Assembly (NCBI GenBank): GCA_039105265.1
Contig: JAPFFF010000049.1
Location: 496,001 to 560,000 of the forward strand
DNA length: 64,000 nucleotides
Source: Tritrichomonas musculus
Lineage: Eukaryota; Parabasalia; Tritrichomonadida; Tritrichomonadidae
Direction: 5' to 3'
In this document: positions 25,501-41,278 of the stretch, piece by piece
Layout: every line of letters starts with the position of its first letter
How positions within the stretch are numbered: the stretch's first letter is position 1
Notes under the pieces: model-generated
The model's input: only the letters and a program-made list of their open reading frames with translations
Told to the model about the DNA's origin: nothing
The model's database searches: none
Made by a program: the position numbers and the translations under genes

Positions 25501-27245
25501 ATAGAATTGACAATAATAAAGGTCACCAAATTGATAACTGCTTATTAGCATGTGCTGAATGTAATAAACTTCGTAAACGTGATGACCCTAAAATAACAAC
25601 TCTAAGAATCCAATTAAAAAAATATTGTAAATTGCATCATTTACCAACACTCATCAATGATGAACGTGAATACTACTCCATTCGAAATGCCATCACAGGA
25701 GGGCTCTCTAATGTAATGCATCGAGTGAATATTAAAGATGAAACTCACATCAATAAATTCCGTTATGACATTCAAAACAACAGAGTCATTTCAAGTGATA
25801 ATCAAAATGTTCAGACACATATCGTCGGAATCGATTTTAATTCTTTGTATCCATCATCATTCTCATCTTGTAAACATGAATTTAATAAGTATCATGGAGG
25901 TATAATGTATATGCCTGGAGCATTTATTAGACGAATTGATGTTAAAGATAAAGCTTCAAAAAAGAGATGCCTTGATATCATAACAAACTACTCAAGATTC
26001 TCGAATAAACCATCATATTTGTTCTATGCAGAAGTTAAACTAAAATGTCCCACCTCAAAGATAAACTATTTTATCAATTTCCCTCCTGTGTTTCGCAATA
26101 TCAATATCAAAAACGATGAATCAACAATTGGCACTTATATGTACAATTACATGAAAACAAATAAATTAACTTCTACAGATATGGAAGAACGCAAGCTTAC
26201 AATGCTTCTTGATACTCATGATGAATACATGATTTTCTCAAATTATTATCTCTGGTTTCTGTTAGACCACGGATTGATTATTGATGATGTTAAATCTGTT
26301 TCACAATATGAAGCTCATACAGGATTTAATGAATTTGTTAGCACTTTTATGCAAAAACGTCAGGATATCATTAGTGGTGTTAGTAAAGGTAATGGCTCTG
26401 AAGGAGACTTGAGCGTAGCGAATGAGAAATTCTATAAAATATCTATGAACGGTTCATATGGATATGATGGGATGAACTCTGAGAAATTCAGTAAAGTCAA
26501 GATATGTGATGCAAATAAAGCTTATCAATATATCATCTCTCAAACTTATATGGGTGGAGCACAATTAAGTGATAATACATTTTTAATTCAACAATCACCC
26601 AAATCATATCATTGCAATACATGCATTCAAGAATCATTGTGGACTCTTGATAACGCAAAGTTTTGGTATCTCACATTTTATTACGATTTTATGAATAATT
26701 GTTTTGATATGGATAGACTACATTTTATAGAGGGTGATACTGATTCAGCATATTTTGCAGTTGCTGGGAACCCAAATGAAGGTCCTGAACAATTATTTGA
26801 TTACGTTATTAAAAACAAAGAGTTCTACGACAAGAATGTATATAAATTCATGCCTAACCCATCAATCAACACTATTCAAGACGAAAAAAAGATATTGGGA
26901 TGTGCCATTGAAAAATATGGTGAAAACATGATAGCTCTTGCACCTAAATGTTATACTATATTTAACAGTAATGGGCAAACCAAATCACTCAAACTAAAAG
27001 GTGTATCTTTAAAGAAGAATCATATTGTGTCTTCCGATTACAAATCTATTATTGATAATCAATCAATTAAGCTTGGTAAGAATATAAATCTTCAGATGCA
27101 AAACAATAAAATGAGTAAAATAACGGTAAACAAGAATGCTCTCACAGGATGTCATACAAAAATGATTGTATTGCCAAATCAATCATGTGCACCCTATATT
27201 AATGGCTTAACAGCGAATAATTATCATATCCAAACGAAATACTAA
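22587..27245 (+). CDS. Protein-primed DNA polymerase B with embedded HNH domain, 1552 aa (element B)
   Basis: ATG 22587 is chosen because it sits at the TIR edge after the T-tract; the longer frame begins at TTG. The N-terminal 500 residues include a region (about 380-500) resembling an OTU-like protease fold (KLCFFRFLAVCLNEEL...LAQKNHINVNIYEF...IIHIMYI), which is tentative. Next come a C-x2-C...H...H-x4-C zinc knuckle (about 510-535) and the exonuclease motifs: DFE (about 580), NSSRFD (about 676) and Y-x3-D (about 820). An HNH nuclease module follows (CHLC...LDRIDNNKGH...NCLLACAECNKLR, about 955-1003). Polymerase motif A is DFNSLYPSSF (about 1082), motif B KFYKISMNGSYG (about 1285), motif C GDTDS (about 1381). 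It would replicate the linear element using a protein primer. A 10-residue double-hairpin insert precedes motif B. Confidence 0.93.
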   Translation: MRYDYRSLKNISNDDIVELIKSINTIFNANLPITTTAKTEAWNRRKNVEVLCDWLNNRNAHRFIKNDLPNAEEIDSFIIHVHKLKRILDDSHEQHYQDILKRDDYFEEDINEEDERYFNTKQQQIEREFEIKEAINRAYEAVDDAIQLIKEQKHPVLQKTERLIIPEAPLIKNHQKQYFPENEELYEYLDKFAHNFTSKHSDFLMINEPHDFDRAVNEWNHYNKYPTENAVERGPITTYYFNQIASLDNIFECLHNVYKKELKPFKVHFQLSGVFETYTYDFESLEEKYEYIARDIIWKNYQSMVPIIISKFEDLEIVKLYIESVLHSYETESSSTKLILVGSIAFTVSRMRKITGRIKDLPIEFIKNDFIIADNEDDKLCFFRFLAVCLNEELANTKKYKTKERTKIAKKLLLKEHNIIYNTKIPNEGKKILNEFEGVSMEQMKDLAQKNHINVNIYEFHKTDSEQYYDLSEQWFFDKTFTTYSALLFTQNQIIHIMYIKNPEKLTQIHICPKCNSYVHYGAENMHRFVSHVKHCDGVFKKNFIPVKEALPYCPHILNNPVYEYCLAYNLQWKPEIYYITYDFETMEQSINKSISNSTTINSRLIPLSVSSCVKTLSGLTTKNFSLRDSQEFIPQWIKWLFEQSMKVYADKISYYESFLLDTSINKNMNVITVLGFNSSRFDSNLFKQYFNYSFFDEVVGSEVSWKVESNSIIGTLSSLKQFILTSDNYPTKLRFIDAQSFVAGGTLKQFGEDFGNNNSEKGVFPYEAINDKNYNEVLSKSEPFSYDDFYSYLNQKNPLTKEEYDAYLEDSKRFATRWDYLLAYNDNDVEMMIKPIDNLIALNAQYNVDLLSNLSLSKNASCIKYALAYKDFDEWMRGSGEDSNPRNNIGITNKYNTFKPSKKWWQYKCDSYYNQDEKYNRLNPKKPQRDLTKCVSENDFEAFMKMYDDPNKGRCHLCHEHFTYQNKPTLDRIDNNKGHQIDNCLLACAECNKLRKRDDPKITTLRIQLKKYCKLHHLPTLINDEREYYSIRNAITGGLSNVMHRVNIKDETHINKFRYDIQNNRVISSDNQNVQTHIVGIDFNSLYPSSFSSCKHEFNKYHGGIMYMPGAFIRRIDVKDKASKKRCLDIITNYSRFSNKPSYLFYAEVKLKCPTSKINYFINFPPVFRNINIKNDESTIGTYMYNYMKTNKLTSTDMEERKLTMLLDTHDEYMIFSNYYLWFLLDHGLIIDDVKSVSQYEAHTGFNEFVSTFMQKRQDIISGVSKGNGSEGDLSVANEKFYKISMNGSYGYDGMNSEKFSKVKICDANKAYQYIISQTYMGGAQLSDNTFLIQQSPKSYHCNTCIQESLWTLDNAKFWYLTFYYDFMNNCFDMDRLHFIEGDTDSAYFAVAGNPNEGPEQLFDYVIKNKEFYDKNVYKFMPNPSINTIQDEKKILGCAIEKYGENMIALAPKCYTIFNSNGQTKSLKLKGVSLKKNHIVSSDYKSIIDNQSIKLGKNINLQMQNNKMSKITVNKNALTGCHTKMIVLPNQSCAPYINGLTANNYHIQTKY
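26391..26423 (+). repeat. Double-hairpin insert in the polymerase gene (B only), AAT flanks
   Basis: Adds 30 bp compared with A (27 bp plus a second AAT). Hairpins are degenerate: CTCT(GAA)GGAG, spacer ACT, then TGAGC(GTA)GCGAA with mismatches. It encodes GSEGDLSVA and lies right before polymerase motif B, so the protein evidently tolerates it or the insertion is very recent. Confidence 0.7.
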
Positions 27246-27337
27246 GTATACTCAAGATTTGATAGCTTTATTTGCCGAAAATGTTGTTGAGGTGAACAGG
27301 TGAAGTTTCACCCACAAGTTCACCACCTTTTGATTTT
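27246..27337. other. Inversion junction between polymerase and ATPase genes (B)
   Basis: Convergent stop codons flank 92 bp found in neither junction of A. It contains a nested inverted repeat at 27291-27324: outer arms GGTGAAC and GTTCACC, inner hairpin GGTGAA(GT)TTCACC. It could be a terminator hairpin or the site used in the inversion. Confidence 0.55.
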
Positions 27338-28246
27338 TTACACACAACTAATAAACTCTATACTACCTTCTCGTGTGTTCACCAAGATGAAATCATGATT
27401 TTTCATACAACAATATCTCCTCCACAAATCTTCGAATTCAATTGGCATAACAACTTGTTGGTATATATAACCCATTTTCTGTCGTGAGAATCCATTAAAT
27501 ATGAAGAAAGATGTGCAATTATTCTTGTAATCCGTCGGTATTGCTTTAAAGAATTGAACATTAACATAGACAATAGAATGTTTGTGCCGTAATTGAGTGA
27601 TATAATTGGTAAAATAAGCTGATTTCAATAGCTTTGATTTAATGAAATCCTCGCATAAAATGATGGTATTTAGAGGACTTTTTGAGGAGTTCAACTGTGA
27701 AATACATAAAAAGGAGAGCATCTTATTTATCTTCTCTTCACAAGCAAAGCTTGGGCCAGCAGAGCTGTCATCTAATCGAGTATTATTATTAACGTATTTA
27801 TCATACAATTCTTTCCATAAATCAAGTTCTTTTAAGTAATTCTCAGCATTTGAATCAGATATGACTTTCACAGGAAGTTTAATCAATTCTCGCTGTGCCT
27901 CAAATGTTGAATCATTTATCACTCCGTTCTTACTAATATAAACAATTAAATGAGCAGCACCAGGGATTCTTGATATTTGAATAATATCACGCAATACAAT
28001 ATGAGATTTACCCTTTCCTTGAGCTCCAACAATGATGTTCAATGAATTATAATTTGCGTAGATACCATTAGCAATTGGTCTAATAGATTCACTCAATATC
28101 TTGGATTCATTTTTTTTATACGCTTTACTCATCTCAATGTCGATGTTAAAAAAGGGTTTTACCTGAGGTTCAGCAAATAGCTCTTCTGAATCACTAGAAT
28201 CTGAAAAAAACACTGTCGAATAATCAAACTTTGTAGGTTTAAGCAT
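27338..28246 (-). CDS. A32/FtsK-HerA-type packaging ATPase, 302 aa (element B)
   Basis: Same protein as in A, apart from a substitution or two and a 10-residue insert (DSSAGPSFAC) between the Walker A and Walker B motifs (about residue 163), encoded by a perfect double-hairpin element. Walker A GAQGKGKS and Walker B TIILCEDF are untouched. In this copy it is convergent with the polymerase gene, not with the TIR-proximal gene as in A. Confidence 0.88.
   Translation of the reverse strand: MLKPTKFDYSTVFFSDSSDSEELFAEPQVKPFFNIDIEMSKAYKKNESKILSESIRPIANGIYANYNSLNIIVGAQGKGKSHIVLRDIIQISRIPGAAHLIVYISKNGVINDSTFEAQRELIKLPVKVISDSNAENYLKELDLWKELYDKYVNNNTRLDDSSAGPSFACEEKINKMLSFLCISQLNSSKSPLNTIILCEDFIKSKLLKSAYFTNYITQLRHKHSIVYVNVQFFKAIPTDYKNNCTSFFIFNGFSRQKMGYIYQQVVMPIEFEDLWRRYCCMKNHDFILVNTREGSIEFISCV
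27738..27770. repeat. 27-bp double-hairpin insert with TCA target duplication in the ATPase gene (B only)
   Basis: Core 27741-27767: hairpin CAAGC(AAA)GCTTG, spacer GGC, hairpin CAGC(AGA)GCTG. TCA is duplicated on both sides; A has the empty site with a single TCA. Total gain is 30 bp, so the frame is kept. Confidence 0.92.
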
Positions 28247-28249
28247 TTC

Positions 28250-28411
28250 TTAGCAATAAAGTTTCTGTCGCATCTCTTCACTTAATTCAGGTGGTTCATC
28301 AGGTTTCACTTGCTTTGCAAGGGCCAACTCTGTTGTCAATGCTGATATTATCACAAATAACTCCATAACATTAACAGCTAGAATCATACATAAAAGTATC
28401 TCACAAAACAT
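28250..28411 (-). CDS. Small membrane protein, 53 aa (element B)
   Basis: Homologue of the 43-aa protein of A, lengthened by 10 residues (TTELALAKQV) between the hydrophobic helix (MFCEILLCMILAVNVMELFVIIS) and the conserved KPDEPPELSEEM tail. The extra residues come from a perfect double-hairpin element. The start ATG is at 28409-28411, three codons upstream of the hydrophobic core. It is 3 bp from the ATPase start on the same strand. Confidence 0.7.
   Translation of the reverse strand: MFCEILLCMILAVNVMELFVIISALTTELALAKQVKPDEPPELSEEMRQKLYC
28306..28338. repeat. 27-bp double-hairpin insert with TCA target duplication in the small membrane protein gene (B only)
   Basis: Core 28309-28335; on the coding strand hairpin CAAC(AGA)GTTG, spacer GCC, hairpin CTTGC(AAA)GCAAG, flanked by TGA both sides (TCA on the plus strand). 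The empty site is seen in A at about 14905. Confidence 0.93.
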
Positions 28412-28431
28412 TTCTTATAAAGAAAAAGTAA

Positions 28432-29031
28432 TTAACAACAATATTTGAGTGATATTGCGTATTTGACAAACTCTGTATAGACATGATTGTAGCAGTATTT
28501 TAGTTCTTCGGATTTACCATCTTTAGTGATTAATATCTTATCAATCTTTATCAGTTTTGCAACACTAGCAACACAACAACCAGGTTCTTCATCTTCAATA
28601 ACCAAATCAACTTTATCACAATCTGTCAACAGCTTTATCATATCCATTAATAATGTCGATTTACACACCACATAAGAGTTTACTTTTAATGGGTTATTTT
28701 CATACATCCCAACAAGCAACTCCAAAAATTTGTTTTTCTTTTCAAGTGAATCCAACTCATTTCCTAAATCTGCAATTCCTCGGCTTCCAAAGGAAGACTC
28801 ACCTACGGTGCGGTCTTGGGCAACACTGTTGGTTTGAGGTATGTATTGAGAAGCAAACCCCTCCTGTGGGGACGGCATAGTAAAATTTACATTTTGTGGT
28901 TGCGGTATTTGTGGATATGCTACTGTACTTCCTCGTTGAGGAGCTAATTTGATTTCTATATTTGTTTCTTGACTCTGTTTTACACTTGCATCGTTTTCTG
29001 AGCTCAATATACGTGCTTTATTCAAAGACAT
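28432..29031 (-). CDS. Hypothetical 199-aa protein (element B)
   Basis: Homologue of the A 192-aa protein, starting directly at MSLNKARIL. It contains a 10-residue double-hairpin insert (TVGESSFGSR) in the Pro/Gln-rich linker at about residue 80. The C-terminal Cys-containing domain is unchanged from A, which points to selection on that half only. Confidence 0.68.
   Translation of the reverse strand: MSLNKARILSSENDASVKQSQETNIEIKLAPQRGSTVAYPQIPQPQNVNFTMPSPQEGFASQYIPQTNSVAQDRTVGESSFGSRGIADLGNELDSLEKKNKFLELLVGMYENNPLKVNSYVVCKSTLLMDMIKLLTDCDKVDLVIEDEEPGCCVASVAKLIKIDKILITKDGKSEELKYCYNHVYTEFVKYAISLKYCC
28781..28813. repeat. 27-bp double-hairpin insert with CGG target duplication in the 199-aa gene (B only)
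   Basis: Core 28784-28810: hairpin CTTCC(AAA)GGAAG, spacer ACT, hairpin CACC(TAC)GGTG, both stems perfect, CGG on both sides. The empty site in A has a single CCG (coding strand) in CAAGACCGAGG. Confidence 0.93.
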
Positions 29032-29058
29032 TTCAGTGCAAAAAAATCTCTGTACATC

Positions 29059-29289
29059 TTACTCTTTATTCGTTAATCTATCAAATTCTTTTTCGAGTTT
29101 GTGAACTTTCTCTTTTAAAGATTCAATATCTTCAATTAACGATTCTCTTACTGCTAATCCATTTGAGCCAAGCATACCTGATTTTACGTTATTGAGATGC
29201 TGTTTATAGTCGTAGCATTTCTCTTTTAGCGCTCGTTTGATTCTTTTAAGTTCAGGAATTTCCCTCTTATAATCACTTAATTCAGTCAT
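29059..29289 (-). CDS. Small coiled-coil protein, 76 aa (element B)
   Basis: Same amino-acid sequence as in A as far as I can compare. It is read away from the 77-aa gene across a 16-bp spacer. Confidence 0.62.
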   Translation of the reverse strand: MTELSDYKREIPELKRIKRALKEKCYDYKQHLNNVKSGMLGSNGLAVRESLIEDIESLKEKVHKLEKEFDRLTNKE

Positions 29290-29305
29290 TTATTTCAATA
29301 CAAAA

Positions 29306-29539
29306 ATGTCTTTTCAACAGAGACGCACGATAAGAGATGATAAAAGAATGAATTTCTACGATAGACTTCAATTGGAAATGCAAAAAGAGCGTACTAGAAT
29401 CAATTCTGCACCTATAATCAAGAAGAGAGATTTGAAGGGAACTATAAACCATGAAAAGCCTCCAATAACTACAAAAAAACTCAACTATCATACATATTCT
29501 TTAAACCATTCAGTGGTCCCAATTAATAGTAAGATTTAA
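29306..29539 (+). CDS. Small basic protein, 77 aa (element B)
   Basis: Identical in translation to the A copy. Convergent with the 148-aa gene, with stop codons 1 bp apart. Confidence 0.62.
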   Translation: MSFQQRRTIRDDKRMNFYDRLQLEMQKERTRINSAPIIKKRDLKGTINHEKPPITTKKLNYHTYSLNHSVVPINSKI

Positions 29540-29540
29540 G

Positions 29541-29987
29541 CTACATATTATTCATAGTATTAATATATTTAGCTATCTGATTCACAGTTGATGTTAGTTC
29601 TATTATTTTTTTCTCTGATTGCTCAATGCGATTCGCTAGAAGCTCATTCGCATGAATGCGCGATATCATCTGCTTAATCTCATCCTTTACACTTTCAATA
29701 TCAGCTCTGATAACATCTTGTTCTAACTCTTTTAGGTCTCCCTTTTTAAACACTTTTTTTAGAAATATATCACCCCCAACTCTCTTATTTCCTTCTTTCG
29801 AACAATTCTTTTTTGTTATTCTATATTCAACACCATCGGGGGTAATAATCTTATATACTTTATTGAGGTACTGTGTGGTGCGTCCATTCATCTCGTCCTT
29901 GTGCTTCTGGTAGAACAAATTAAATTCTTCGATGGATTTGAAGTTTTTTGTTTCTTCAGTTATTTCGTTAATTACTTCCAATTCCAT
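29541..29987 (-). CDS. Coiled-coil protein, 148 aa (element B)
   Basis: Differs from the A copy by isolated substitutions (for example LNKVYKI for LNRVYKI and FKKGDL for FKKEDL). No insert. It has the same T-tract before the ATG. Confidence 0.68.
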   Translation of the reverse strand: MELEVINEITEETKNFKSIEEFNLFYQKHKDEMNGRTTQYLNKVYKIITPDGVEYRITKKNCSKEGNKRVGGDIFLKKVFKKGDLKELEQDVIRADIESVKDEIKQMISRIHANELLANRIEQSEKKIIELTSTVNQIAKYINTMNNM

Positions 29988-30013
29988 TTATTTTCAAAAA
30001 AATTTTTTTGTTT

Positions 30014-30268
30014 TTATTCTACTTCATTTATCAAGCTCTTACCAATTCTCATTCCTCTATCGACAACATTCAACCCTGTGTCAATTGCTCTTATAGTGTC
30101 TCCAATAAGAGGTATATCACCTAAAACAGGCTTTACCGCACTGGTAACTCTTTTACCAATTTCAACAACTTTAGGAAGCGCTTTACCGACTTTATTTGCA
30201 ACATTCTTAATTGTATTGCCAACTGATTTAAAAGCATTTTTCATTTTCTTGAAGATTCCGATACCCAT
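30014..30268 (-). CDS. pVI-like small basic protein, 84 aa (element B)
   Basis: One substitution from A (KNVANKVGK for KNVATKVGK). Divergent to the capsid gene across 51 bp. Confidence 0.65.
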   Translation of the reverse strand: MGIGIFKKMKNAFKSVGNTIKNVANKVGKALPKVVEIGKRVTSAVKPVLGDIPLIGDTIRAIDTGLNVVDRGMRIGKSLINEVE

Positions 30269-30319
30269 TGTTTTTATAATGAAAAAAGTCCTGTAATAAG
30301 TACTTTTTTTGTATCATAA
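30269..30319. promoter_or_regulatory. Divergent promoter region between pVI-like and capsid genes (B)
   Basis: Same 51-bp arrangement as in A: GTACTTTTTTTGTATC before the capsid ATG and, on the other strand, a GGACTTTTTTC tract before the pVI-like ATG. Confidence 0.55.
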
Positions 30320-32362
30320 ATGTTGTATCGCAACGAAAGAGCACATAATTACAAAATCGAAGCTGGGAATGTACTTGACACTTTTAATAAGATGCGTGAA
30401 ATGATTAACACTAATGATGGTACACGCTCATTTTCATTCAGAACTGTTGACTGTCATGACCAACCTGCACCATTTCATCAAGGACAGTATTCCCAAATCA
30501 GTTTAACACATCCTGACCACTTCATTAGTGATGTTGATAAAGGATTCCTCACCTTTCACATCAAACTAGATTTACAATTGAATACTGATTTAGCAAAATT
30601 ACAACAAATTGATGACCCAAATAACTTCTACAAATTATTTGTCGGGCTCAAATCTTCTAATCAATTGTTTGACCGTTTGGAGATTCTCCATAATAATGTA
30701 AACGTTGGATATCAGCAAAATGAATGTATTCGTGAAGGGTTTTTGTATTCCACTGTTAAACCAGAGACTGAGAAGAAACGTAGGCGTTTTGTACATTCAC
30801 TTTGGGAAAACGTTTCAAATTATTCACAAACTGTTGCTGGTGCTTATGTTAACCTCAATTCATTCAAATCTAATGGTAAATCCCAAGTTGAATTTGATTT
30901 AAACGTACCATTCGATGATTTACTTGCATTACAAGCATTCGATTTATTCCCTAATGGTATCATAGGTGATTTATCAATTCGTTTCCAAGTATCACCCGCA
31001 GGATTAGTTTGGGCCGCTATAGACCCTTATACTGTTGCTGAAACAAAAGCTTATCTAGAAGATAATGATAGTATCTCATCTGCAGAATTAGAAAGATTGA
31101 AAGAAATAAAGGCCCGCGGTCACTTGAAACATCAATTTACACAAATTGGTAATGAAGCTATAATTCCAGGTCCTGGTGCTCCATCTCCAGACCCATCACC
31201 AACACCAGACCCATCACCATCTCCAACACCTGACCCATCACCGTCTCCATCTCCTGAACCAACCCCAACACCTATCAAGTATAAGATTCAATATCGAATT
31301 GGTGAACAATGGGATAATGATGATGGAAGTACTGGTTACACTGATATTCTTACAGATTTGGAATTCAATTTCAGTTACACAAAGGAAGAATTTGAAGAAT
31401 TTGGATTACAACCAGGTGCAACTGATGAAGAAATTTGTGTTCATAATCCTGCTGTAACATTACCACCATTAAATCATGCTGACAAAAATGGAAGATATTA
31501 TGCTTGGCAAATTGTTAAAACACCAATTGTTTCTGCTAAACAGACTCTTCAAGCAATTCATGATGCTAAATCACAACTTCACAACGAAACATATTCATCA
31601 CAGAAAGCCACATTAACTGTAAACAGAATGACAATCACATTATGTAAATCAAATATGCAAGGATATGGTGTCTGTGAATCTACTCGCAGAGGTATTGAAA
31701 ATATTCTTCGTGAAGGAATTATAATTCCATCCCAAAAAGTTGATTACCATTCATTCCCAATCGCTCCTGCCGCAAATGGTATCAAATCTACTTTGAATAT
31801 CCCATTAATTAATGTTACTACAATGTCGATTATGTTTCCAAAACATCATAATGACCTCACTGTTTTCGAAAATCCGGTATATCAAAATTGTTATCTCAAT
31901 ATTGGTGGTAAGAACTTCCCAGATGAAAATGTTTCAACAATAGGAGCAAGATTCTTTGAAAATCAATTAACTGCTGGAGACCTTGATGGAATCACATTAC
32001 AATGCACAAAAGAATTTGAAGATAGTATGACAATGCCAAAGAATGATGCAAATGGAGTTCGTTATAGAAATACTTTAAGTGATGCTTCTAGCTTTGTATT
32101 CAATATTCAAACAGAACGTGCTTCAGCAGGATATTGCTATGATGGTTTGGATGGTGGATTTGGAAATATTCAAGTTCAGGTTAATGGTCAACCAATATAT
32201 ACAGGTCCAAATGATACTTACTATAATGTTAACGAAGAAGGTACAGTGCATCCACCTCCAACTCAATTATGGCTCACAAGAGATACATACTTTAAACTTT
32301 CACTTAATGGATTAGAATATGTTGATGATGAAACACCAGCTGGCAGTCAAGTTAATGAGTAA
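30320..32362 (+). CDS. Major capsid protein, double jelly-roll, 680 aa (element B)
   Basis: Almost the same as the A capsid. Differences cluster in the loop between the two conserved halves: four more residues in the PSP/PTP linker, and QWDNDDGSTGYTD for QWDETDGTGYTD. The second half (FPKHHNDLTVFENPVYQNC, GFGNIQVQVNGQPIYTG) is intact and shows what C has lost. Probably forms the trimeric capsomer of the virion. Confidence 0.9.
   Translation: MLYRNERAHNYKIEAGNVLDTFNKMREMINTNDGTRSFSFRTVDCHDQPAPFHQGQYSQISLTHPDHFISDVDKGFLTFHIKLDLQLNTDLAKLQQIDDPNNFYKLFVGLKSSNQLFDRLEILHNNVNVGYQQNECIREGFLYSTVKPETEKKRRRFVHSLWENVSNYSQTVAGAYVNLNSFKSNGKSQVEFDLNVPFDDLLALQAFDLFPNGIIGDLSIRFQVSPAGLVWAAIDPYTVAETKAYLEDNDSISSAELERLKEIKARGHLKHQFTQIGNEAIIPGPGAPSPDPSPTPDPSPSPTPDPSPSPSPEPTPTPIKYKIQYRIGEQWDNDDGSTGYTDILTDLEFNFSYTKEEFEEFGLQPGATDEEICVHNPAVTLPPLNHADKNGRYYAWQIVKTPIVSAKQTLQAIHDAKSQLHNETYSSQKATLTVNRMTITLCKSNMQGYGVCESTRRGIENILREGIIIPSQKVDYHSFPIAPAANGIKSTLNIPLINVTTMSIMFPKHHNDLTVFENPVYQNCYLNIGGKNFPDENVSTIGARFFENQLTAGDLDGITLQCTKEFEDSMTMPKNDANGVRYRNTLSDASSFVFNIQTERASAGYCYDGLDGGFGNIQVQVNGQPIYTGPNDTYYNVNEEGTVHPPPTQLWLTRDTYFKLSLNGLEYVDDETPAGSQVNE
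31180..31270 (+). repeat. Proline-rich codon repeat in the B capsid gene
   Basis: Repeats of CCATCACC, CCAACACC and CCATCTCC-type codons encoding PSP/PTP/PDP; 12 bp longer than in A. Confidence 0.8.
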
Positions 32363-32364
32363 AT

Positions 32365-32445
32365 TGATTTTCGAATATTTTCTAGTCCCCCGGAATTCCG
32401 CAAGCAAAGCTTGAGTCAACAAAGTTGCCGAGGGTTGATTTTTTT
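32365..32445. repeat. GGAATTCC palindromic unit containing a perfect double-hairpin insert (B)
   Basis: The outer unit matches the palindromic insert in the A KilA-N gene (GATTTTCGAATATTTTCT, CCCCGGAATTCCG, then CCGAGGGTTGATTTTT). It is split by a 27-bp element at 32401-32427: hairpin CAAGC(AAA)GCTTG, spacer AGT, hairpin CAAC(AAA)GTTG, with CCG duplicated at 32398-32400 and 32428-32430. This is one mobile unit nested inside another. Confidence 0.88.
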
Positions 32446-32485
32446 GCAAATCTATTTTTAAAATAATTTTTTATCTCCAGAACAA

Positions 32486-33219
32486 ATGGCTTCGATAAAC
32501 GTAGAAAGGACCAATTGGTCCCACGACTTTGTCGTACGAATTAATGATGACTACGAATTTATTCAATATAATGCACATTTACGCATCATACATTCAATTA
32601 AAGATGATTTGTACCAAATGCAAAGTATAATAACTGCATGCCAATCAAATAAACAAGCTTATCGATGGAAACAATTAGCCGAAAAACAAAAGAAATTATA
32701 CAAGAAAGACCAAATTTACCAAACGATTTGAAAGGGACATATATTCACAGACTTCTCGTTAATGATTTTGCATGCTGGGCGAGTAGAAAATACGCAATCT
32801 ATATTGCCAAACTTTTAGACTCCCAATTTGAACGTGAACGCAAACAACATCAGCAACAAATTGATGAACTCAAACCACGTGCAGTTCCAGAAAATCATAA
32901 GAATGATTACCGTTATTTGATTTACAAAGAGGATATTAATAAAGAAGGTTTCATTAGGCTTCATTTGTGTCGTCGTCATAAGAGTACTTGGAGAAAAGTT
33001 GTTAACCATTACAATAATGAAAACGAAAGATTTTACTTCAAAGATGACCTTCCTATTAGTATGACACCAAATTTAAACATCAAGAATATCATAAAAGCAT
33101 CATTTGGAACAGATGATTATAAGGTTTCCAATAGTGGTAACTGTGTTGATATCAAAATAGAGCATCTTAATAAGCTCCATACATTAATTGAAGAATACTT
33201 TAATAGTATGAGCCAATAA
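32486..33219 (+). pseudogene. KilA-N domain protein gene, frameshifted (element B)
   Basis: Starts MASINVER as in A and reads 81 codons, then shifts frame within an A-rich stretch near 32685; the rest (NDLKGTYIHRLLVNDFACWASRKYAIYIAKLLDSQ onward) is in another frame to 33219. The offset fits loss of one base. A double-hairpin-like insert (TNWSHDFVVR) follows residue 8. The part around the frameshift differs from A beyond single substitutions, so this region was also exchanged. The C-terminal domain matches A. Confidence 0.78.
32507..32538 (+). repeat. Double-hairpin-like insert in the KilA-N gene (B only)
   Basis: GGACCAATTGGTCC palindrome followed by a perfect hairpin ACGAC(TTT)GTCGT. The net gain is 30 bp. 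Flanks are AGG and ACG, i.e. a 3-bp duplication with one mismatch. Confidence 0.7.
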
Positions 33220-33220
33220 A

Positions 33221-33256: not shown

Positions 33257-33323
33257 TGAAAAACGTGATGATTTACCTGTAATTGATATTTTTTTTGTAT
33301 ATCAATACTTTTTTTGGAAAAAA

Positions 33324-34679
33324 ATGACTAAATCAGTAAGAATCTACGATAAAGAATACAACTCCTTACTCAATTATCCTTTCAAATCCAAGTATAAATA
33401 CATTGATAATTACATACAACCTTTCTTTAAAAGTGATATCAAAACAGAACCATTTATTCCTGACTTCAAGTTGAAATCATGCAAAGAATTATCAAAACCA
33501 AATTTCTCTAATGAACCAGGTTGTTGGGAAGCAGATTTGATGTTTAGCAAATACTATACTAGAGATTTGACAAAAGAAAATAAAATATATTTGGTTCTCA
33601 TCAATACAAATACAAGATACCTAATCGTTGAACCTGTAAAGGATAAAGGAAATATATGGTTTTCCCTTGAACGAATTATAATAAGATATCCACAATTTCT
33701 ATTCAAAACTATCAAATGTGATGGAGAACCTGGATTAAAAGAGATGAAAGATAATAGTGTCGTCATTTGGTTTTCAACAGGAGAAACTACTTTGATATTT
33801 GACTTGAAAGCTGTAATTAAAGAAGCAAGGATAAAAGAGTTTGATAAAATATTAAGTAAAATACTCGTGAACCACAAACTGGAAACTCTTAAAAAACTGC
33901 TTAAAAAAAGCGACTATTATAAACCTCGTTTCCAAAGGCTACTCAATTTACAATTTGAAGACATCCAGTTTTGGGAAAATACAATAGATTCAATCACCGA
34001 TTTCTATTCTATAAGATTCATTATTAATGATTCTCCATATGCGTTAGCTCACAAAAATGTTGATTCTGTTATAAGAACTCTGAGAAATGCTTTTGGGTTA
34101 GATGATCGAAGATTAAGTGATTATAATTTGATGAGACAAATGGTTGATTACTATAATAACACCCCTCATAGTTCTCTTCGATTTAAGAATTTTGATTATG
34201 ACCCATCAGATTTTTATGACAAGAATCTTGTAAAACCAACGAAGTACATATATTATACCCCAGCTCAAATGCAAAACAATGTTGATTTGGAGTGGAGATA
34301 TATCAGGAAAATGCAAATGAAATTGCGGGAAATCAATGATAAACAACGTTTTAAGGGGTTGTTATCTTATAATAGAGGTAATATTTTATTAGTTCATCTC
34401 GATAAAAGCAAAACGCAAAAAAAGCATGAGAAGCGTAGAAGAGTATTTAATGAAATTGCTGAGTTTCTAGAGTATCGTAATGGAAATGTAATCTGCAAGT
34501 TATTAAAACCATATCAGACTGTTAAAAAAGATGAACCACAAGAAAAGCATCATAAAGGTAGGAAACGTATGACTGATGCTGAAAAAGCTATTATTGAAGT
34601 ACCTATTATATATACGAAATTCATATGTAATTCATTTGGAGACTTAAATGAAGATTACATTAAGTATTTTAACATTTAG
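33324..34679 (+). CDS. Retroviral-type (Maverick) integrase, 451 aa (element B)
   Basis: Same length as in A, with isolated substitutions (for example LTKENK for LKKENK, NNVDLEW for NDTDLEW). First Asp in W-E-A-D, second in K-C-D-G-E-P-G, third acidic position is again Asp in KNVDSVIRTLR. Because this element has an exact target duplication and intact ends, an enzyme of this type was presumably active recently, in cis or in trans. Confidence 0.88.
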   Translation: MTKSVRIYDKEYNSLLNYPFKSKYKYIDNYIQPFFKSDIKTEPFIPDFKLKSCKELSKPNFSNEPGCWEADLMFSKYYTRDLTKENKIYLVLINTNTRYLIVEPVKDKGNIWFSLERIIIRYPQFLFKTIKCDGEPGLKEMKDNSVVIWFSTGETTLIFDLKAVIKEARIKEFDKILSKILVNHKLETLKKLLKKSDYYKPRFQRLLNLQFEDIQFWENTIDSITDFYSIRFIINDSPYALAHKNVDSVIRTLRNAFGLDDRRLSDYNLMRQMVDYYNNTPHSSLRFKNFDYDPSDFYDKNLVKPTKYIYYTPAQMQNNVDLEWRYIRKMQMKLREINDKQRFKGLLSYNRGNILLVHLDKSKTQKKHEKRRRVFNEIAEFLEYRNGNVICKLLKPYQTVKKDEPQEKHHKGRKRMTDAEKAIIEVPIIYTKFICNSFGDLNEDYIKYFNI

Positions 34680-34684
34680 TTTCT

Positions 34685-35077
34685 ATGAAAAAAATGCTTA
34701 TGAATAATATCAAGAATGTTGCAACAAACAATGTAAAACAGCCCATAACAAAACGTTATTTCCACACTCAATCAACAGAATTTACGTTGCCGCTTGAATT
34801 TGTATCAAGCAGAAACAAGAAATATATTGTAATTCAATATGTTGGAGCAATTGTAAAAGACTTTTTAGTTGGTGATTTAATGGTGCATTCAGATATAGTT
34901 CAATTAGATGCATATTGTGATTCATTCATTATGTTAGCTAATAAGCGTCAAACCAAATATCGAAAATACGAATTCTTCAGTAGCAATAAGAGAGATTACA
35001 AGATATGGTTTACCGATTTGTATGGCAATTCAATCATACCATCAGCATTTATCATGAGCTGCCTTCTTATTTATTAA
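34685..35077 (+). CDS. Hypothetical 130-aa protein, possible minor capsid (element B)
   Basis: Translation matches the A copy. The start is 5 bp after the integrase stop, suggesting read-through expression or a promoter within the integrase 3' end, since there is no room for the usual T-tract except TTTAGTTTCTATG. Confidence 0.6.
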   Translation: MKKMLMNNIKNVATNNVKQPITKRYFHTQSTEFTLPLEFVSSRNKKYIVIQYVGAIVKDFLVGDLMVHSDIVQLDAYCDSFIMLANKRQTKYRKYEFFSSNKRDYKIWFTDLYGNSIIPSAFIMSCLLIY

Positions 35078-35101
35078 GCTACAGCTTTTTTCGAAGGAAA
35101 A

Positions 35102-36097
35102 ATGAATAACAGCAACCAAAAATCGGTATTCACAGCACTGCAAGAACTTAATTTGCAAGATCCAAATTGTATCAATATTAATAAGGACCATCAACTGTTT
35201 TCATATATCTCTGAAAGAAATAGGAGAGTCTTATTGTATTTAAGTAGTAATTACCATGAATTATTTGTGCTTATTAATGGTAGTGAAGTAACGTTGGATT
35301 TACCTAAAAAAGTGGATTTCAAAGATGAGAGAAATATAAATAATACAAACGATCCTAGTCTATCACGTTTATTCACAATAACTGTGGACCTTTTTTCTAA
35401 TTTTGGTAATACCGATATCCAATTTGTTGAAAAATCATTTCCTGACCTAAATAAAACATATATACTATTGATTGGAGACTATGATTATAGATATGATGTA
35501 AAAGAAACAAATAATTTCTGTTATCAACTATCTTCGAGCGTAGACGTTGATTGCACAGTTAAGCCAGTACCAATAATTATCTTTCTCTGTTTCGAAAAAG
35601 AAACATTCATGAGCCAATGGCAGAAAGTTCGATTGCGAAATAAAAATGAAGATGCTGATATTAAAGGTTTCAAATATGAATTTCAGGATTGGAAATACCA
35701 TTTTCCAGTATTCAATGTATTCAAATCAAATATCACAAGCCCCATCTTAAAAGTAAATACAAATAATTCACATCCTAGAGAGCCTTCCTTATTTAGTGGA
35801 TATGACCCAAAAGTAAATATTGAATATAATAATGAAAAACTTGATATACCCGATGAAATACGCCCAAAGAAGGTATTACCATCACCAATAACTGAATTCA
35901 AATATTTTTACCAAGAACCTGAAAAATCTAGTATAGCTCGTAATACATCTAAGAATCAAAAGGTTGCAAGTCCAACAGAAGCTAAAAATGATTTCTTGTC
36001 GCAAGCGAAGCTTGGGCCTGCTATGCAGTCACAGGTAAATCCAGGAACAAATAAGGCGCATACAACAACATTCAAATTACCAGGTTCAAAAAAATAA
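35102..36097 (+). CDS. Hypothetical 331-aa protein (element B)
   Basis: As in A with few substitutions. The C-terminal insert reads QAKLGPAMQ and retains a perfect second hairpin at the DNA level. The upstream region is shorter than in A (GCTTTTTTCGAAGGAAAAATG). Convergent with the 879-aa gene. Confidence 0.7.
   Translation: MNNSNQKSVFTALQELNLQDPNCININKDHQLFSYISERNRRVLLYLSSNYHELFVLINGSEVTLDLPKKVDFKDERNINNTNDPSLSRLFTITVDLFSNFGNTDIQFVEKSFPDLNKTYILLIGDYDYRYDVKETNNFCYQLSSSVDVDCTVKPVPIIIFLCFEKETFMSQWQKVRLRNKNEDADIKGFKYEFQDWKYHFPVFNVFKSNITSPILKVNTNNSHPREPSLFSGYDPKVNIEYNNEKLDIPDEIRPKKVLPSPITEFKYFYQEPEKSSIARNTSKNQKVASPTEAKNDFLSQAKLGPAMQSQVNPGTNKAHTTTFKLPGSKK
35999..36031 (+). repeat. 27-bp double-hairpin insert in the 331-aa gene (B)
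   Basis: Core 36002-36028: hairpin CAAGC(GAA)GCTTG, spacer GGC, hairpin CTGC(TAT)GCAG; flanks TCG and TCA. Also present, decayed, in A. Confidence 0.88.
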
Positions 36098-36131
36098 TTA
36101 GCAAGGATATAAAGTAGGAATAGTAATTTTT

Positions 36132-38771
36132 TTATGCTTCATCTTCGTCATCATCATCAGAAGGTTCCTCAACAATTTCAGCTGTAGCTGGCTTTTCAAC
36201 AGTTCGTGACCTAATATATGATTTATCACCAGCACCTTTATGTGCAGCCTTATATAATCCTTTGATTGTGGTGTAATTTCCACCAACTTGTGAATCAATC
36301 CAAGCATCAATATTTTCACCAAATTTGTCTTGTAATTGCTTCTTTGTTGCTGTACTTACTTTATTTTCAATTATAGCTTGAGCTAACTGTGCATATTGGT
36401 CTTTCTTATCTTCTGTGAATCCAAGACCAGTCTTAAAGATGAGGTCATTTGTTTGCTCCAATATTTCTTGTAATACTCCTGATATTTCACCATCACTATT
36501 TATTTCTCCATCAACTGGCATAGTCGCTTTAATGCTTTCATTATATTCTTTTTGAATCATAACACCCAATTCAGCATTTACGGATTTTGGATGTAATTTC
36601 TTATATTTAACCCAATCACTCCAATCATTGCGTTCATGGTCTTTCATCACTTTAGATTCGTAACGTGCAATAAATATGGCTGTACATACTTTGAAATAAC
36701 TAAATATACATTTTAATGGTTCCAAATCTTTGTATTCTTCAGTAGTAAATATATTGTATAAAACAGTTTGCCATATTTTTGAAAATATAGAACTCCACAA
36801 ACCTCTTGCAGTAATTTTGGTACTGATTTTGGGTTTGGATAAACCAACAGATTGATATGAGTTTATTACTTTTTCTAATTTCTTATCAATTTCAGGTTTA
36901 AACTTACCTTCATTCCATTGTTCTGGAGTGTATTCCCATGTTCGTTTAGCTCCCATAAGATTCTTAAGCCATACTTCAAATGAATCATTTGTTTTACCAG
37001 CAATACGTTCGGTTTGCCATAATTTCTTATAAGGGTCTGCTTTAACAAGACGATATCCATTAATAATAACAGGCTTACCACGGGTATCAACAATAACAAT
37101 ATCTTCAACTCTATCACCGTTTAAATCACAAATTGGATTACCGAGAGGGTCTTTAGTGTCATGCCTAGCTGGTACTAAACGATATAATGGATATCCATTT
37201 TTATCAAATCTTTTCTTGCAATAAGCTTCTGCTCCATCTCTTGTAGCACATTTAGGTGAAAACTTGACACGGTAATTACCGTTAATAAGAATATCAAATA
37301 ATTCCCCTCGATATTTACTAACATCAATACTTTGTTTGTTTTCGAAAATGTACAGGTCGCTCATACGTTTTTGTGATGCTTCAAATGTTTTACCAGCACG
37401 TTTACCTGTTGGGATAGACTTCATATATTCATTTAAGAATTCAGCAGCATTTACTTCAGGTCCTTTTGTTGTTTCAATATTTGAGTTCAATAGTTCTGAA
37501 AAGTTGGTGTGGTCATCTTCAGCTTCAATTGGTTTGTTTCTTCTAAGATATTCTTTGGTTGGTGTGCTAAAAACACGCTTCGACATTGTTTTATAGTCGG
37601 ATAAAGATTCACTATCATCTTCTAGATTTACGTCAATTGCATGATAATTGTCTTTAACAACTTTGCTTTGCAAATGTTCGGCTTTCTTTGAAAGACTCGC
37701 CTGTGGCGCAGATTCACTTTGCTCTTCTATATCACTATTCATATTAAAAAATATTTCTCTATCTCCATTTTCATTAAGGTACTTTATTAATTGTTTGAGT
37801 TGCTTTTTGTTTTTAGGTTCAGTTGTTTCTTCAAATATGTTTGTTTCTCTTATTGCATCATGTAATTGTAATGCGATATTCCTAACTCTAACATCGGAGT
37901 CATCTTTAGGATTTATAGACCTATTATAGTAACCATAAAGGTTTTTAGCAGTAAACTCTTCATTTAATAAGCCAAACCTTTCTAGTTGGTTAGCATCAAT
38001 TGTAGAAGATTTATTGTAAGCATCTAATAATTGCTGACCTTCTTGATTAGATTCAGCTAACTTTCTCATTGTTTCAATATTGGTTTGTCTTCTTTGTTTC
38101 TCAAATTGCATTAGGTTATTTATGTCATCTGGTATCTTATTGTTTTTATGTGAATCTATGTTTTCAGTTAATGATACGACAAGTAATTGAATCTGTGTAG
38201 TATCTTTTTTATTAAATAACGGATACCTTTTTGAGTCATCAGCAATACAATAAAATAAGTGTAAAGCATTAATATGATTACTATCAAGTGTAAATAAATT
38301 ACTAAGTGATTCAATGTCTTTATTAATTCTGTTTCTAAAATAGTGGCCTTCCAAGTCGGGCTCCTCCTCTTCCTCAATTTGTGGAATAACAGGCTTTTCT
38401 TCCTCCGCTTGTCGGCAACTGCGTTGACTGGAACTTTGTTCCCGGAGGCTGCGAGTGCCCGCAGCTTTATCTTTCAGATAGTTGGTTAAATCAATAAAGT
38501 AATTCGCTTTTGAATCAAGTATTTTAGCTAATTCATTTTTTTGTCTTTTACTTCCTTTAGGCTTTGCGTTATATTTATCAAGCATATCTTTTAGCTTTTC
38601 TTTCACGTCTTTGATATAGTTACGAGGATTCTTAAGATACTCAATAATATTGTGTATTATTGTTTTTATTTGCTCTGATTTACTATTTTGGAACATGAAT
38701 ATGAGCATATCTTGATAATCTTTCTTTTTCACCTCATTCATTATTAATTGTTCATCCACATCTGACGTCAT
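36132..38771 (-). CDS. Large hypothetical Maverick protein, 879 aa (element B)
   Basis: Homologue of the A 870-aa protein: one Asp fewer in the acidic tail, and a 10-residue insert (SLREQSSSQR) in the N-terminal charged region from a perfect double-hairpin element. A few residues around it also differ (LTNYLKDK for ISGLLKDK). Starts 5 bp from the fibre gene, head-to-head, as in A. Confidence 0.75.
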   Translation of the reverse strand: MTSDVDEQLIMNEVKKKDYQDMLIFMFQNSKSEQIKTIIHNIIEYLKNPRNYIKDVKEKLKDMLDKYNAKPKGSKRQKNELAKILDSKANYFIDLTNYLKDKAAGTRSLREQSSSQRSCRQAEEEKPVIPQIEEEEEPDLEGHYFRNRINKDIESLSNLFTLDSNHINALHLFYCIADDSKRYPLFNKKDTTQIQLLVVSLTENIDSHKNNKIPDDINNLMQFEKQRRQTNIETMRKLAESNQEGQQLLDAYNKSSTIDANQLERFGLLNEEFTAKNLYGYYNRSINPKDDSDVRVRNIALQLHDAIRETNIFEETTEPKNKKQLKQLIKYLNENGDREIFFNMNSDIEEQSESAPQASLSKKAEHLQSKVVKDNYHAIDVNLEDDSESLSDYKTMSKRVFSTPTKEYLRRNKPIEAEDDHTNFSELLNSNIETTKGPEVNAAEFLNEYMKSIPTGKRAGKTFEASQKRMSDLYIFENKQSIDVSKYRGELFDILINGNYRVKFSPKCATRDGAEAYCKKRFDKNGYPLYRLVPARHDTKDPLGNPICDLNGDRVEDIVIVDTRGKPVIINGYRLVKADPYKKLWQTERIAGKTNDSFEVWLKNLMGAKRTWEYTPEQWNEGKFKPEIDKKLEKVINSYQSVGLSKPKISTKITARGLWSSIFSKIWQTVLYNIFTTEEYKDLEPLKCIFSYFKVCTAIFIARYESKVMKDHERNDWSDWVKYKKLHPKSVNAELGVMIQKEYNESIKATMPVDGEINSDGEISGVLQEILEQTNDLIFKTGLGFTEDKKDQYAQLAQAIIENKVSTATKKQLQDKFGENIDAWIDSQVGGNYTTIKGLYKAAHKGAGDKSYIRSRTVEKPATAEIVEEPSDDDDEDEA
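38413..38445. repeat. 27-bp double-hairpin insert with CGG target duplication in the 879-aa gene (B)
   Basis: Core 38416-38442: hairpin CAAC(TGC)GTTG, spacer ACT, hairpin GGAAC(TTT)GTTCC, CGG on both sides. A lacks 30 bp here but keeps part of the CAAC hairpin, as expected if it lost the element by recombination between two CGCAG copies. Confidence 0.92.
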
Positions 38772-38776
38772 TTATT

Positions 38777-41221
38777 ATGTTCAAAATGTTTACGATAGAG
38801 CAAGCAGGTGGTATCAAAAGGGTAAATACAATAGATGAATTAATAATAGAATACATAAAACAATATGCCACTTCATGTGGGTGTAAGTGTAATAACGGAA
38901 ATAATTTGGGGTCAAGCTTGAATACCGAGGAATTGAAAGAATTATTGAAACCATATGCGAAAACAACTGATTTATTCGATTATTTGAAAACAGAGGAATT
39001 CAATAAAGAATTATTAAAGTATGCTAGTAGTGAAGAAATTGACTTGCAAAGCAAGGCCCAAGCTTTAGCTTGTCAAAACGCTGTTAATACATTACGTGAT
39101 TACGTTGTTAACAATTTTGCATTATCAACTGACATACCTGAAATACCTACAGATTTGGTTAATGAATCTGCTTTGACAACTGCTTTGGAACCATATGCGA
39201 AGCTTACGAATCTTGATGAGTACGCGAAAACAGAAGACTTGCCAGATATGACATTGTATGCAAAAACAGAAGACTTGCCAGAGATACCTACAGTTCTCAA
39301 AAATAATGAACTACAATTGAATCCGAATGAAGAACCAACAGAAGAAGTTCAACAGAAATTGATGAATGATGATACACCATTATCAGCTCAAGCATCATAT
39401 ATATTATCATCCATGGCAGTAACTAAAACATTGGATTTGATTAATCTTGATGAGTATTCGAAGAAACAGGACTTACAGTCTTATGTGAAGCTTACGAATC
39501 TTGATGAGTATTCGAAGAAACAGGACTTGCCAGATATGACATTGTATGCAAAAAAAGAAGATATTCCAGAACCTGTTGATTTGACACCATATTATACTAG
39601 CGCACAAACTGATGAGAAGTTTGTTGATGAAGATGAATTGGCTTATGAATTAGATAAGTATGAGACAAAGGATGTGGCTAATGGGAAATACGCTCTCAAA
39701 ACGGATATCCCTGAGATACCCACAGATTTGGTTAATGAATCTGCACTGAGTACTGCGTTGGAACCATATGCGAAAACAGAAGACTTGCCAGATATGACCA
39801 AGTATGCACTCTCAACAGATATACCAAAAGAGTATTTCACTGATATCAGTGGAGAGGTTTATATCAAAGACCCAAACAACATCCTGACATTGGGTGGAGC
39901 AAATCATACAAGTAGTGATGCACCTCTCATGGTCATGAAACCAAATCATTCTCGAAATAGAAGAATATTTAGCATTGGCAATCAACTAGATAGTTCAAAG
40001 GAGAGATGGTTAGATTTTGATATTGATGCAAACAGTGATACAGCGACCATCAAATACAATGAAATAACTGCATTGGAGATTACTCGATCAAAAGTTTGTG
40101 TTATGAATGCATGTGATATAGACGGTAATGCCTATGTTAAAATCAATGAATTACCAGATATGACCAAGTATGCACTCACTGAAGATATCCCAGCACCAGT
40201 TGATTTGACACCATATTATTCTAGTTCACAAGCTGATGAGAAGTTCGTTGATAAAGATGAATTGGCTTATGAATTAGATAAGTATGTTCCCAAAGAAGGT
40301 AATTCAACTATTAAAGGTACATTGTCAATATTAGATACAAATACTACAGAATCAGATTTTAAAACCTTGTTAATAGCAGGCATAGGTACAAATGAAAATG
40401 AAGCCGCAACTTTCGGTTTTTATATTGGTTCAGGTGTTTTAGGTGTTGTAGGTTGTGAAAATATTATTGGTTGGGATATAGAACATACAATTTTTCATAA
40501 TAATGTTTTTATAACATATGGTGATTTAGAAATAGATGGTGTAGATGCAGATTGTTTAAAGATATATCAAGGAAATCCAAATTTATATGAATCGAACATA
40601 ATTCTCGGTCTTAATTCAGCAAAATGTGCAAAAATACAATATTATAATCAAGGTAATTTAGCTCGTTATAGAGTAATATTGAATAATTCAAACGCGTTTT
40701 CTTATGAAGTTTCTCCATCAGGAAGAAATACAACAATTGATTCAAATTTACATGTTAACGGTAAGATAACATCAAATGGTTCAAATACAATCACTCATTA
40801 CTCCCCAATTGAGTCATCTGTAAATTCAATAAATGATTTCGTTATTGGAGCTCCAGTATATATGACTGGTAAGGTTTATAAACATGTTGGTGATATGTGG
40901 ATATCTTCAACTGTGAATGATACAACAGATTGTATTTGCAGTGTCAAAACTACTGGTTCATGGAAAGAATATGTTGGTATTTGTGTTAGAATTGACCAAA
41001 AAAATAATTGTATTACCTTCACTTCACATGGTGATTATCTTGTAAAAGTTGATGATTCATCTTGTTATGGTATTGGAGATGAAGTATTTATTGATAATGA
41101 AGACAATAAATTGAAGATTCTTAGTGGTGAAACTGCAATAACATCAAAGATTAAACGTATGACTGTGGGGGTTATCACTGCAATAATAGATGATAAAACG
41201 CTTGCTGTATTCAAAAGCTAA
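38777..41221 (+). CDS. Fibre-like protein, 814 aa (element B)
   Basis: Intact version of the gene broken in A. The N-terminus (MFKMFTIEQAGG, then Cys-rich SCGCKCNNG) and the first shaft repeats match A. The centre is different and contains more shaft repeats (LDEYSKKQDL, YAKTEDLPDM, LTPYY-S-QTDEKFVD) and then an unrelated globular stretch to about residue 665. The C-terminal head from ITHYSPIESSVNS to AVFKS matches A. The architecture resembles trimeric viral fibres or tail spikes, so receptor binding is the likely role (inference). It carries one double-hairpin insert near residue 90 and another exactly at the stop codon. Confidence 0.72.
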   Translation: MFKMFTIEQAGGIKRVNTIDELIIEYIKQYATSCGCKCNNGNNLGSSLNTEELKELLKPYAKTTDLFDYLKTEEFNKELLKYASSEEIDLQSKAQALACQNAVNTLRDYVVNNFALSTDIPEIPTDLVNESALTTALEPYAKLTNLDEYAKTEDLPDMTLYAKTEDLPEIPTVLKNNELQLNPNEEPTEEVQQKLMNDDTPLSAQASYILSSMAVTKTLDLINLDEYSKKQDLQSYVKLTNLDEYSKKQDLPDMTLYAKKEDIPEPVDLTPYYTSAQTDEKFVDEDELAYELDKYETKDVANGKYALKTDIPEIPTDLVNESALSTALEPYAKTEDLPDMTKYALSTDIPKEYFTDISGEVYIKDPNNILTLGGANHTSSDAPLMVMKPNHSRNRRIFSIGNQLDSSKERWLDFDIDANSDTATIKYNEITALEITRSKVCVMNACDIDGNAYVKINELPDMTKYALTEDIPAPVDLTPYYSSSQADEKFVDKDELAYELDKYVPKEGNSTIKGTLSILDTNTTESDFKTLLIAGIGTNENEAATFGFYIGSGVLGVVGCENIIGWDIEHTIFHNNVFITYGDLEIDGVDADCLKIYQGNPNLYESNIILGLNSAKCAKIQYYNQGNLARYRVILNNSNAFSYEVSPSGRNTTIDSNLHVNGKITSNGSNTITHYSPIESSVNSINDFVIGAPVYMTGKVYKHVGDMWISSTVNDTTDCICSVKTTGSWKEYVGICVRIDQKNNCITFTSHGDYLVKVDDSSCYGIGDEVFIDNEDNKLKILSGETAITSKIKRMTVGVITAIIDDKTLAVFKS
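39040..39075 (+). repeat. Double-hairpin insert (30-bp core) in the fibre gene (B only)
   Basis: Hairpin CTTGC(AAA)GCAAG, spacer GCC, hairpin CAAGC(TTTA)GCTTG, flanked by TGA and TCA. Encodes DLQSKAQALAC. A has the empty site (GAAATCCAAAAC). Net gain 33 bp, in frame. Confidence 0.85.
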
Positions 41222-41247
41222 AAGCTTTGGTCAAGCTATGCTTGTCA
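41211..41247 (+). repeat. Double-hairpin insert at the fibre stop codon with TCA duplication (B only)
   Basis: Hairpin AAAGCT(AAA)AGCTTT, spacer GGT, hairpin CAAGC(TAT)GCTTG, TCA at both ends. It replaces the original TCA TAG with AGC TAA, so the protein still ends VFKS. Confidence 0.85.
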
Positions 41248-41278
41248 AATCATAGATTTAAATAGAGCATGCGCATAT

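Follow-up and report, generated by a model that had tools for sequence, protein, structure and literature searches.

A family of tiny double-hairpin insertions, which is conserved in structure and has precise empty sites, is present in the nuclear genome of the gut protist Tritrichomonas musculus. The window, i.e. the whole stretch of 64,000 nucleotides analysed here, corresponds to positions 496,001–560,000 of JAPFFF010000049.1 (a 1.2-Mb contig of the 193-Mb genome). The typical inserted unit is 30 nt long. In it, a 13-nt hairpin (5/3/5) is followed by a 3-nt spacer, then by an 11-nt hairpin (4/3/4) and, at the 3' end, by a triplet. The unit is located directly 3' of another triplet, which is usually equal to its own. 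We give about an even chance to the explanation that the units are non-autonomous ultra-short mobile DNA elements, which would perhaps travel as folded single strands, the spacer being guide-like. An earlier note on this DNA had proposed such a family, and the proposal is supported here; the note had wrongly taken the host for T. vaginalis.

Host DNA and genome copies

The window contains inverted copies of a long repeat, A (1198–15849) and B (27334–41740). Forty genome copies of the repeat, from 172 candidates, were scored at 99–100% identity over 1369 bases. For comparison, 85 loci of the T. musculus genome (L numbers below), each of 1–4 kb, were used. By searches against Pfam, PHROGs and PDB, a KilA-N domain at 10029–10787 (copy A) and a Pox_A32-type ATPase at 60098–60961 were identified. 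The other window proteins gave nothing above the cut-off in these databases, and an integrase or recombinase was not recognised. According to the KilA-N domain of copy A and the element-bearing polymerase B genes elsewhere in the genome, the label Maverick is plausible for the host repeats. The units sit in a 1.2-Mb contig, in virus-like repeats, and not in mitochondrial DNA. No relatives of the polymerase were confirmed in IMG/VR. A protein filed under Bacteroides acidifaciens (P0004) shows 90% identity over 46% of the product of L072, and this similarity suggests that protist DNA may lie inside the bacterial record.

Architecture of the units

The sites of the window are as follows.

27741..27767, + strand: core 13-GGC-11, triplets TCA/TCA; antisense in a 303-codon frame
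28309..28335, + strand: core 13-GGC-11, triplets TCA/TCA; intergenic, derived insertion
28784..28810, − strand: core 11-AGT-13, triplets CCG/CCG; sense in a 208-codon frame
32401..32427, + strand: core 13-AGT-11, triplets CCG/CCG; intergenic
38416..38442, − strand: core 13-AGT-11, triplets CCG/CCG; sense in an 879-codon frame
9982..10008, − strand: core 13-AGT-11 with one stem mismatch, triplets CCG/CCG; intergenic, copy A
5477..5503, + strand: core 11-AGT-13, triplets CTG/CCG; copy A
37682..37708, − strand: copy B counterpart of the 5477–5503 element
36002..36028, + strand: core 13-GGC-11, triplets TCG/TCA; sense in a 339-codon frame, core identical to that at L047:1504
39043..39072, − strand: 30-nt core 5/4/5-GGC-5/3/5, triplets TGA/TCA; derived insertion
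41214..41244, + strand: 31-nt core 6/3/6-GGT-5/3/5, triplets TCA/TCA; at the end of the frame 38777–41221
26394..26420, no strand assigned: 30-bp insertion relative to copy A, outside the plan

All the sequences listed in the earlier note were found in place. The 13+3+11 double hairpin with adjoining 3-bp repeats is exact at 27741, 28309, 28784, 32401 and 38416. The site 9982, given as another perfect case, follows the plan with one stem mismatch. The list had missed the element common to copies A and B (5477–5503 and 37682–37708). Among the proposed variants, 36002 and 39043 are double hairpins with unequal triplets (TCG/TCA and TGA/TCA), and 26394 and 32510 differ from copy A by 30 bp and do not fit the plan. 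Palindromic A-versus-B insertions outside the 13-3-11 plan are located at 32510–32535 and 10541–10597. An intergenic allele of 33 bp at 35074–35090, present in some copies and absent from others, has 7/3/7 and 4/4/4 hairpins and does not obey the triplet rule; it was seen in about two thirds of 29 copies. Copy length at 37714 varies by an 18-bp tandem repeat. The indels at 38952 were rejected as family members; they belong to a 27-bp coding tandem repeat.

The exact plan (5/3/5-3-4/3/4) with adjacent 3-bp repeats occurs five times in the window, against a mean of 0.1 in ten order-1 resamples. Spacers of 0–2 and 4–7 nt gave no case in the window, and other loop pairs gave none or one. The canonical order is 13-nt hairpin, spacer, 11-nt hairpin and triplet; the order with the 11-nt hairpin first also exists and is rarer. 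Genome-wide patterns that specified the two triplets, the spacer and two positions in the second hairpin gave 87 matches for CCG/AGT against 14 for the reversed control, and 114 for TCA/GGC against one. At most two of the nine pairs are broken in 21 of the 29 distinct CCG strings and, among the matches listed (101 of the 114 TCA rows), in 21 of the 38 distinct TCA strings, one of which stems from a separate pattern listing. With the 11-nt hairpin first, nine genome matches were obtained for CCG (at most two of nine pairs broken in eight of them) and 16 for TCA (hairpins in two). In an IMG/VR control with more constrained patterns, perfect double hairpins were found in 0 of 25 and, among the matches listed, 1 of 120 cases. 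Systematically placed host DNA of 50 kb yielded a single chance match, which was A+T-rich. An origin as chance palindromes of A+T-rich sequence is ruled out by the resampling, by these two controls and by the indel survey described below.

In 27 hand-picked units, the stems show strong covariation, and 97.9% of the stem cells are paired. Cells changed on both sides number 74, against 21.7 in shuffles, a level that kinship alone can exceed, and the score falls from 0.826 to at most 0.181 when the stem partners are slid. A C-G pair closes the loop in 41 of 53 distinct hairpins. The TCA and CCG classes share two hairpins of 13 nt and two of 11 nt. It had been claimed that structure and not sequence recurs; the architecture is indeed kept, but the triplet and the spacer hardly vary and go together, and the closing pair is mostly C-G. 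The G+C content of six cores is 0.41–0.59, compared with 0.302 for the window. Single-stranded folds of four units are only modestly better than those of shuffles (z from −0.75 to −1.8). Immediately after the triplet, A is found in 27 of 39 hand-listed rows (two rows have common flanks), compared with 0.40–0.42 after TCA/CCG in the window. The whole unit has no terminal inverted repeats, which are the mark of a MITE or classical DNA transposon; it is composed of two separate hairpins. In the A+T-rich repeats at L053:1661–2868, a 28-nt unit (5/3/5-GGC-4/4/4, TCA triplets) occurs 11 times beside unit-free versions of the motif.

Coupling of spacer and triplet

The coupled spacer/triplet pairs are GGC/TCA, AGT/CCG, GGT/CCA (L073) and AGC/TCG (L040). 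When the spacer RGY is placed opposite the triplet YCR, unlike bases meet at the outer positions (A faces G, C faces T) around a central C-G. Fifteen hand-listed sites were found without fixing the triplet, and 14 of them obey the rule at each outer position (Fisher p 0.0014 each). For the AGC spacer of L040, the triplet TCG was expected from the rule and the first two triplet bases, and TCG was observed. The uncoupled pattern, TCA with AGT, gave one genome-wide match. The coupling is broken at one position each in 41214 and L035:2373, and L021 is a point variant. In a 45-row scan for units, many loci of which had been selected by coupled patterns, eight rows with the spacers CGA, CGC, CGG, GGG and TGA and unequal flanks were excluded as members. 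At L039:1458, L041:473 and L041:2534, perfect double hairpins have a CGG spacer and stand between unequal flanks; perhaps they represent another small palindromic family.

Indel survey and empty sites

Sixty of the 85 genome loci, 30 of which (L031–L060) had been selected with an element pattern, were compared with the window, and 84 distinct alleles of 6–90 nt were obtained. Double hairpins account for 16 of the 21 alleles at 30 bp, none of the 58 at 6–29 and 31–40 bp, and three of the five at 41–90 bp. The 16 alleles fall at nine sites by hand count.

Clean empty sites are present in copy A at 27741, 28309, 28784 and 41214, and in copy B at 9982; the flanks are 100% identical at 41214, at 9982 and at 27741, which is also empty in L035 and L047. 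The site 32401 is empty in copy A at a flank identity of 91.7%. Empty sites in the other copy had been claimed for 38416 as well, but copy A (locus L025) has a 30-bp deletion between CTGCG repeats there, and part of the element is kept. Clean empty copies of 38416 are L002, L008, L010, L019, L020 and L021, i.e. six of the 30 loci L001–L030, five of which lack the anchor used; gap-tolerant counting overcounts, giving 16 instead of these six exact copies. The exact empty string of 28309 was found in 18 loci and the filled string at two genome places among the matches listed; on this basis, 28309 is a gain. The exact empty string of 28784, with CCG or CAG, was found in 13 loci and copy A, and the site is filled in the window, L050 and L058 (left triplet CAG). 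No empty copy of 36002 was found among the loci examined. The family thus shows presence/absence variation with short flanking repeats.

The presence of units differs between near-identical copies, and both gains and losses were observed. The site 39043 is filled in one copy and empty in four, and the L040 site is filled in one and empty in five. Several further copies of 38416 show deletions that are partial or larger than the unit: the element is damaged in L003, L017 and L018, and L026, like L025, is a deletion between CTGCG repeats. On a tree of 29 copies, 38416 requires seven changes, at least two of which are forced by well supported branches, with deletion, damaged and anchor-less copies all scored as empty. 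The sisters L001 and L002, with an identity of 99.95% over 4339 positions, differ at 38416. Compared with the L072 product, a metagenome protein of 96% identity is shorter by exactly ten residues, which are those missing at the element. In L069, tandem units with a common triplet are present, and the second unit is absent from L073. Only one of 45 distinct cores was found at two unrelated sites (36002 and L047:1504), and near-identical cores occur at several sites. As identical donors are rarely seen, plain copying is less favoured; either the units diversify fast or they are rewritten during movement.

Origin of the 3' triplet

The earlier note had described a 3-bp target duplication. Equal triplets are indeed present at most sites, but the derived insertions 39043 and L040 are not simple duplications. 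At 39043, the filled copy reads TTTTGA-[30]-TCA-ATTTC, and the empty copies read TTTTGA-ATTTC (L011, L012 and L013) and TTTTGG-ATTTC (copy A). At L040, a further unit of the TCG class lies directly after the 26394 insertion; the filled copy reads GCG-[27]-TCG-AATGAG, and the window, L036, L043, L052 and L057 have the empty form GCG-AATGAG. The right triplet at both sites arrived with the unit and not from the target. Since these empty sites lack the right triplet, the unit consists of the hairpins and its own 3' triplet. Where the triplets are equal throughout a site, a carried triplet and a duplication look the same.

At 37682, the filled copies read CTG-[27]-CCG, and the single empty copy, L027, keeps CTG. 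Because almost every copy is filled, L027 may represent a loss. A carried end motif, with insertion 3' of a short target, is thus seen at 39043 and L040, and is possible at 37682. Further unlike pairs deviate on the left: 36002 (TCG/TCA), L068 (TTG/CCG), L083 (TTA/TCA) and L058 (CAG/CCG), for which the empty copies carry both CAG and CCG. For the standard unit, TKR-type unlike triplets were found nowhere in the genome, on the left or on the right, a result that speaks neither for nor against the left-side asymmetry, which rests on few sites.

Units in genes

Among 42 site rows, some of which are flank variants of one site, frames of 120 codons or more contain the unit in sense orientation in 15 and in antisense orientation in 18, and nine units lie in no such frame; the loci of 1–4 kb may cut frames short. 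The earlier note had placed the insertions in Maverick genes, but 28309, 32401 and 9982 lie in no frame of 120 codons. The genic units leave the frame open in either orientation. The CCG class occurs in several phases; the TCA class is in phase 0 when sense and mostly in phase 2 when antisense. DNA polymerase B genes (L033 and L071) contain elements, as does a frame that encodes a DEAD helicase domain (L069). Introns were ruled out by inspection, as GT...AG ends are absent. Translational bypass is not needed, as the frames are open through the unit.

Proposed movement and alternatives

In the explanation that we hold at even chance, the unit would move as folded single-stranded DNA. Single strands would perhaps be exposed by strand-displacement replication of Mavericks, and the enzyme would be provided in trans. 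Lying 5' of the second hairpin, the spacer would be guide-like, and the triplet, 3' of the same hairpin, would be like a cleavage site. Cleavage 3' of a like triplet would admit the unit, so that every insertion would create a new target. The stems would change quickly yet remain paired. The Y1 transposase profile PF01797, the one HUH profile searched, had no match in the genome and was positive in five of 14 control genomes. More specifically, and tentatively, the spacer might be a 3-nt target code that sets both the 3-nt end and the insertion site by unlike-base opposition, the units being moved in trans among endogenous virus copies with their stems rewritten.

The triplets could also be true duplications, if an enzyme with 3-nt staggered cuts at TCA/CCG moved MITE- or GC-cluster-like double-stranded units and the unlike triplets were later mutations. 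The left and right triplets mostly equal each other and match the empty site at the examined sites, TKR-type unlike triplets are absent genome-wide, and yeast mitochondrial GC clusters have AG or ACT flanking repeats in the cited account (PMC4478555). We consider true duplication rather unlikely, as the right triplet missing from the empty sites of 39043 and L040 equals the class triplet both times, and as the spacer/triplet coupling would be left unexplained. If the units were instead written or rewritten at each insertion, e.g. by fold-back synthesis copying the second arm from the first, the near-perfect stem compensation would be expected, as would the 45 distinct cores with one at two unrelated sites and the 28309 core without a second site among the matches listed. 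The hairpins, however, recur as modules in both classes, near-identical cores stand at several sites, and fixed spacers and triplets find no explanation, which makes such rewriting improbable.

An RNA-level origin, in which the units are reverse-transcribed transcripts or translational bypass signals, has precedents in the double-hairpin gene inserts of Magnusiomyces mitochondria, described as bypassed (PMC5009743), and in the RNA route proposed for GC42 (PMC4478555). It appears very improbable here, given both gene orientations (15 sense and 18 antisense of 42) and frames open through the unit. Least credible is the explanation that most of the alleles arose by independent deletion of old hairpins and not by insertion. 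It draws on the several kinds of deletion at 38416 and on the difference between L001 and L002 at 99.95% identity; the 18 empty loci at 28309, the one filled and five empty copies at L040, and the one filled and four empty copies at 39043 argue against it.

Relation to known elements

The earlier note's likeness to mitochondrial GC clusters and double-hairpin elements is supported. Double-hairpin elements, compared by description, also have two hairpins per short mobile-looking unit; they belong to another genome compartment, and the coupling and target rule belong to the units here. Yeast mitochondrial GC clusters (GC42) are, in the cited account, short palindromic G+C-richer units in A+T-rich DNA, with short flanking repeats, presence/absence variation, and merging and shuffling of modules (PMC4478555). 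In contrast, the present units are nuclear and proviral, are 30 nt long with a fixed 13-3-11 plan, show spacer/triplet coupling and carry the triplet at two sites. By appearance, GC clusters are the nearest kin.

In IS608, as outlined in the cited report, a short guide lies 5' of a hairpin and insertion occurs 3' of a retained short target (PMC5934647). The units resemble IS200/IS605 (IS608) and REP, as these reports present them, in the guide 5' of the hairpin foot, the 3'-end motif and the target kept in the left flank (PMC5934647, PMC8266576). They differ in being 30 nt in all, with no ORF and no Y1 transposase match, and in the opposition of unlike bases, which stands in place of the known pairing. 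Judging from this analogy, the units may work like IS200/IS605, but cannot be filed there because the Y1 profile has no match. Perhaps the units work like IS200/IS605 or REP; they look like mitochondrial GC clusters.

In Rickettsia, palindromic coding inserts occur in-frame in protein genes. PARCELs are likewise palindromic DNA inserted in-frame in protein genes; their repeats are 75 nt, compared with 30 nt here, and a triplet rule or empty-site boundary is not described in the part of the report drawn on (PMC2996958). The byp elements of Magnusiomyces mitochondria are also short blocks in protein genes between similar triplets; according to the cited description they break the frame and are skipped by ribosomes, whereas the present units leave frames open in both orientations (PMC5009743). 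Among the listed titles and abstracts of the literature searched, no description of such elements in Mavericks or trichomonads was found.

Mitochondria have been known since 1976 to contain palindromic mobile units of ultra-short length, the origin of which the cited 2015 account still called 'poorly understood' (PMC4478555). Here, dozens of near-identical nuclear host copies provide filled and empty alleles, from which boundaries, target rule, gain and loss are directly readable. The units put ten in-frame codons into the genes of virus-like elements, DNA polymerase B included. The spacer/triplet coupling is a concrete, testable code. At 30 nt, the units would rank with the smallest known pieces of mobile DNA and, if the tentative target code is true, would be the smallest guided ones described, a eukaryotic counterpart of the IS200/IS605 guides.
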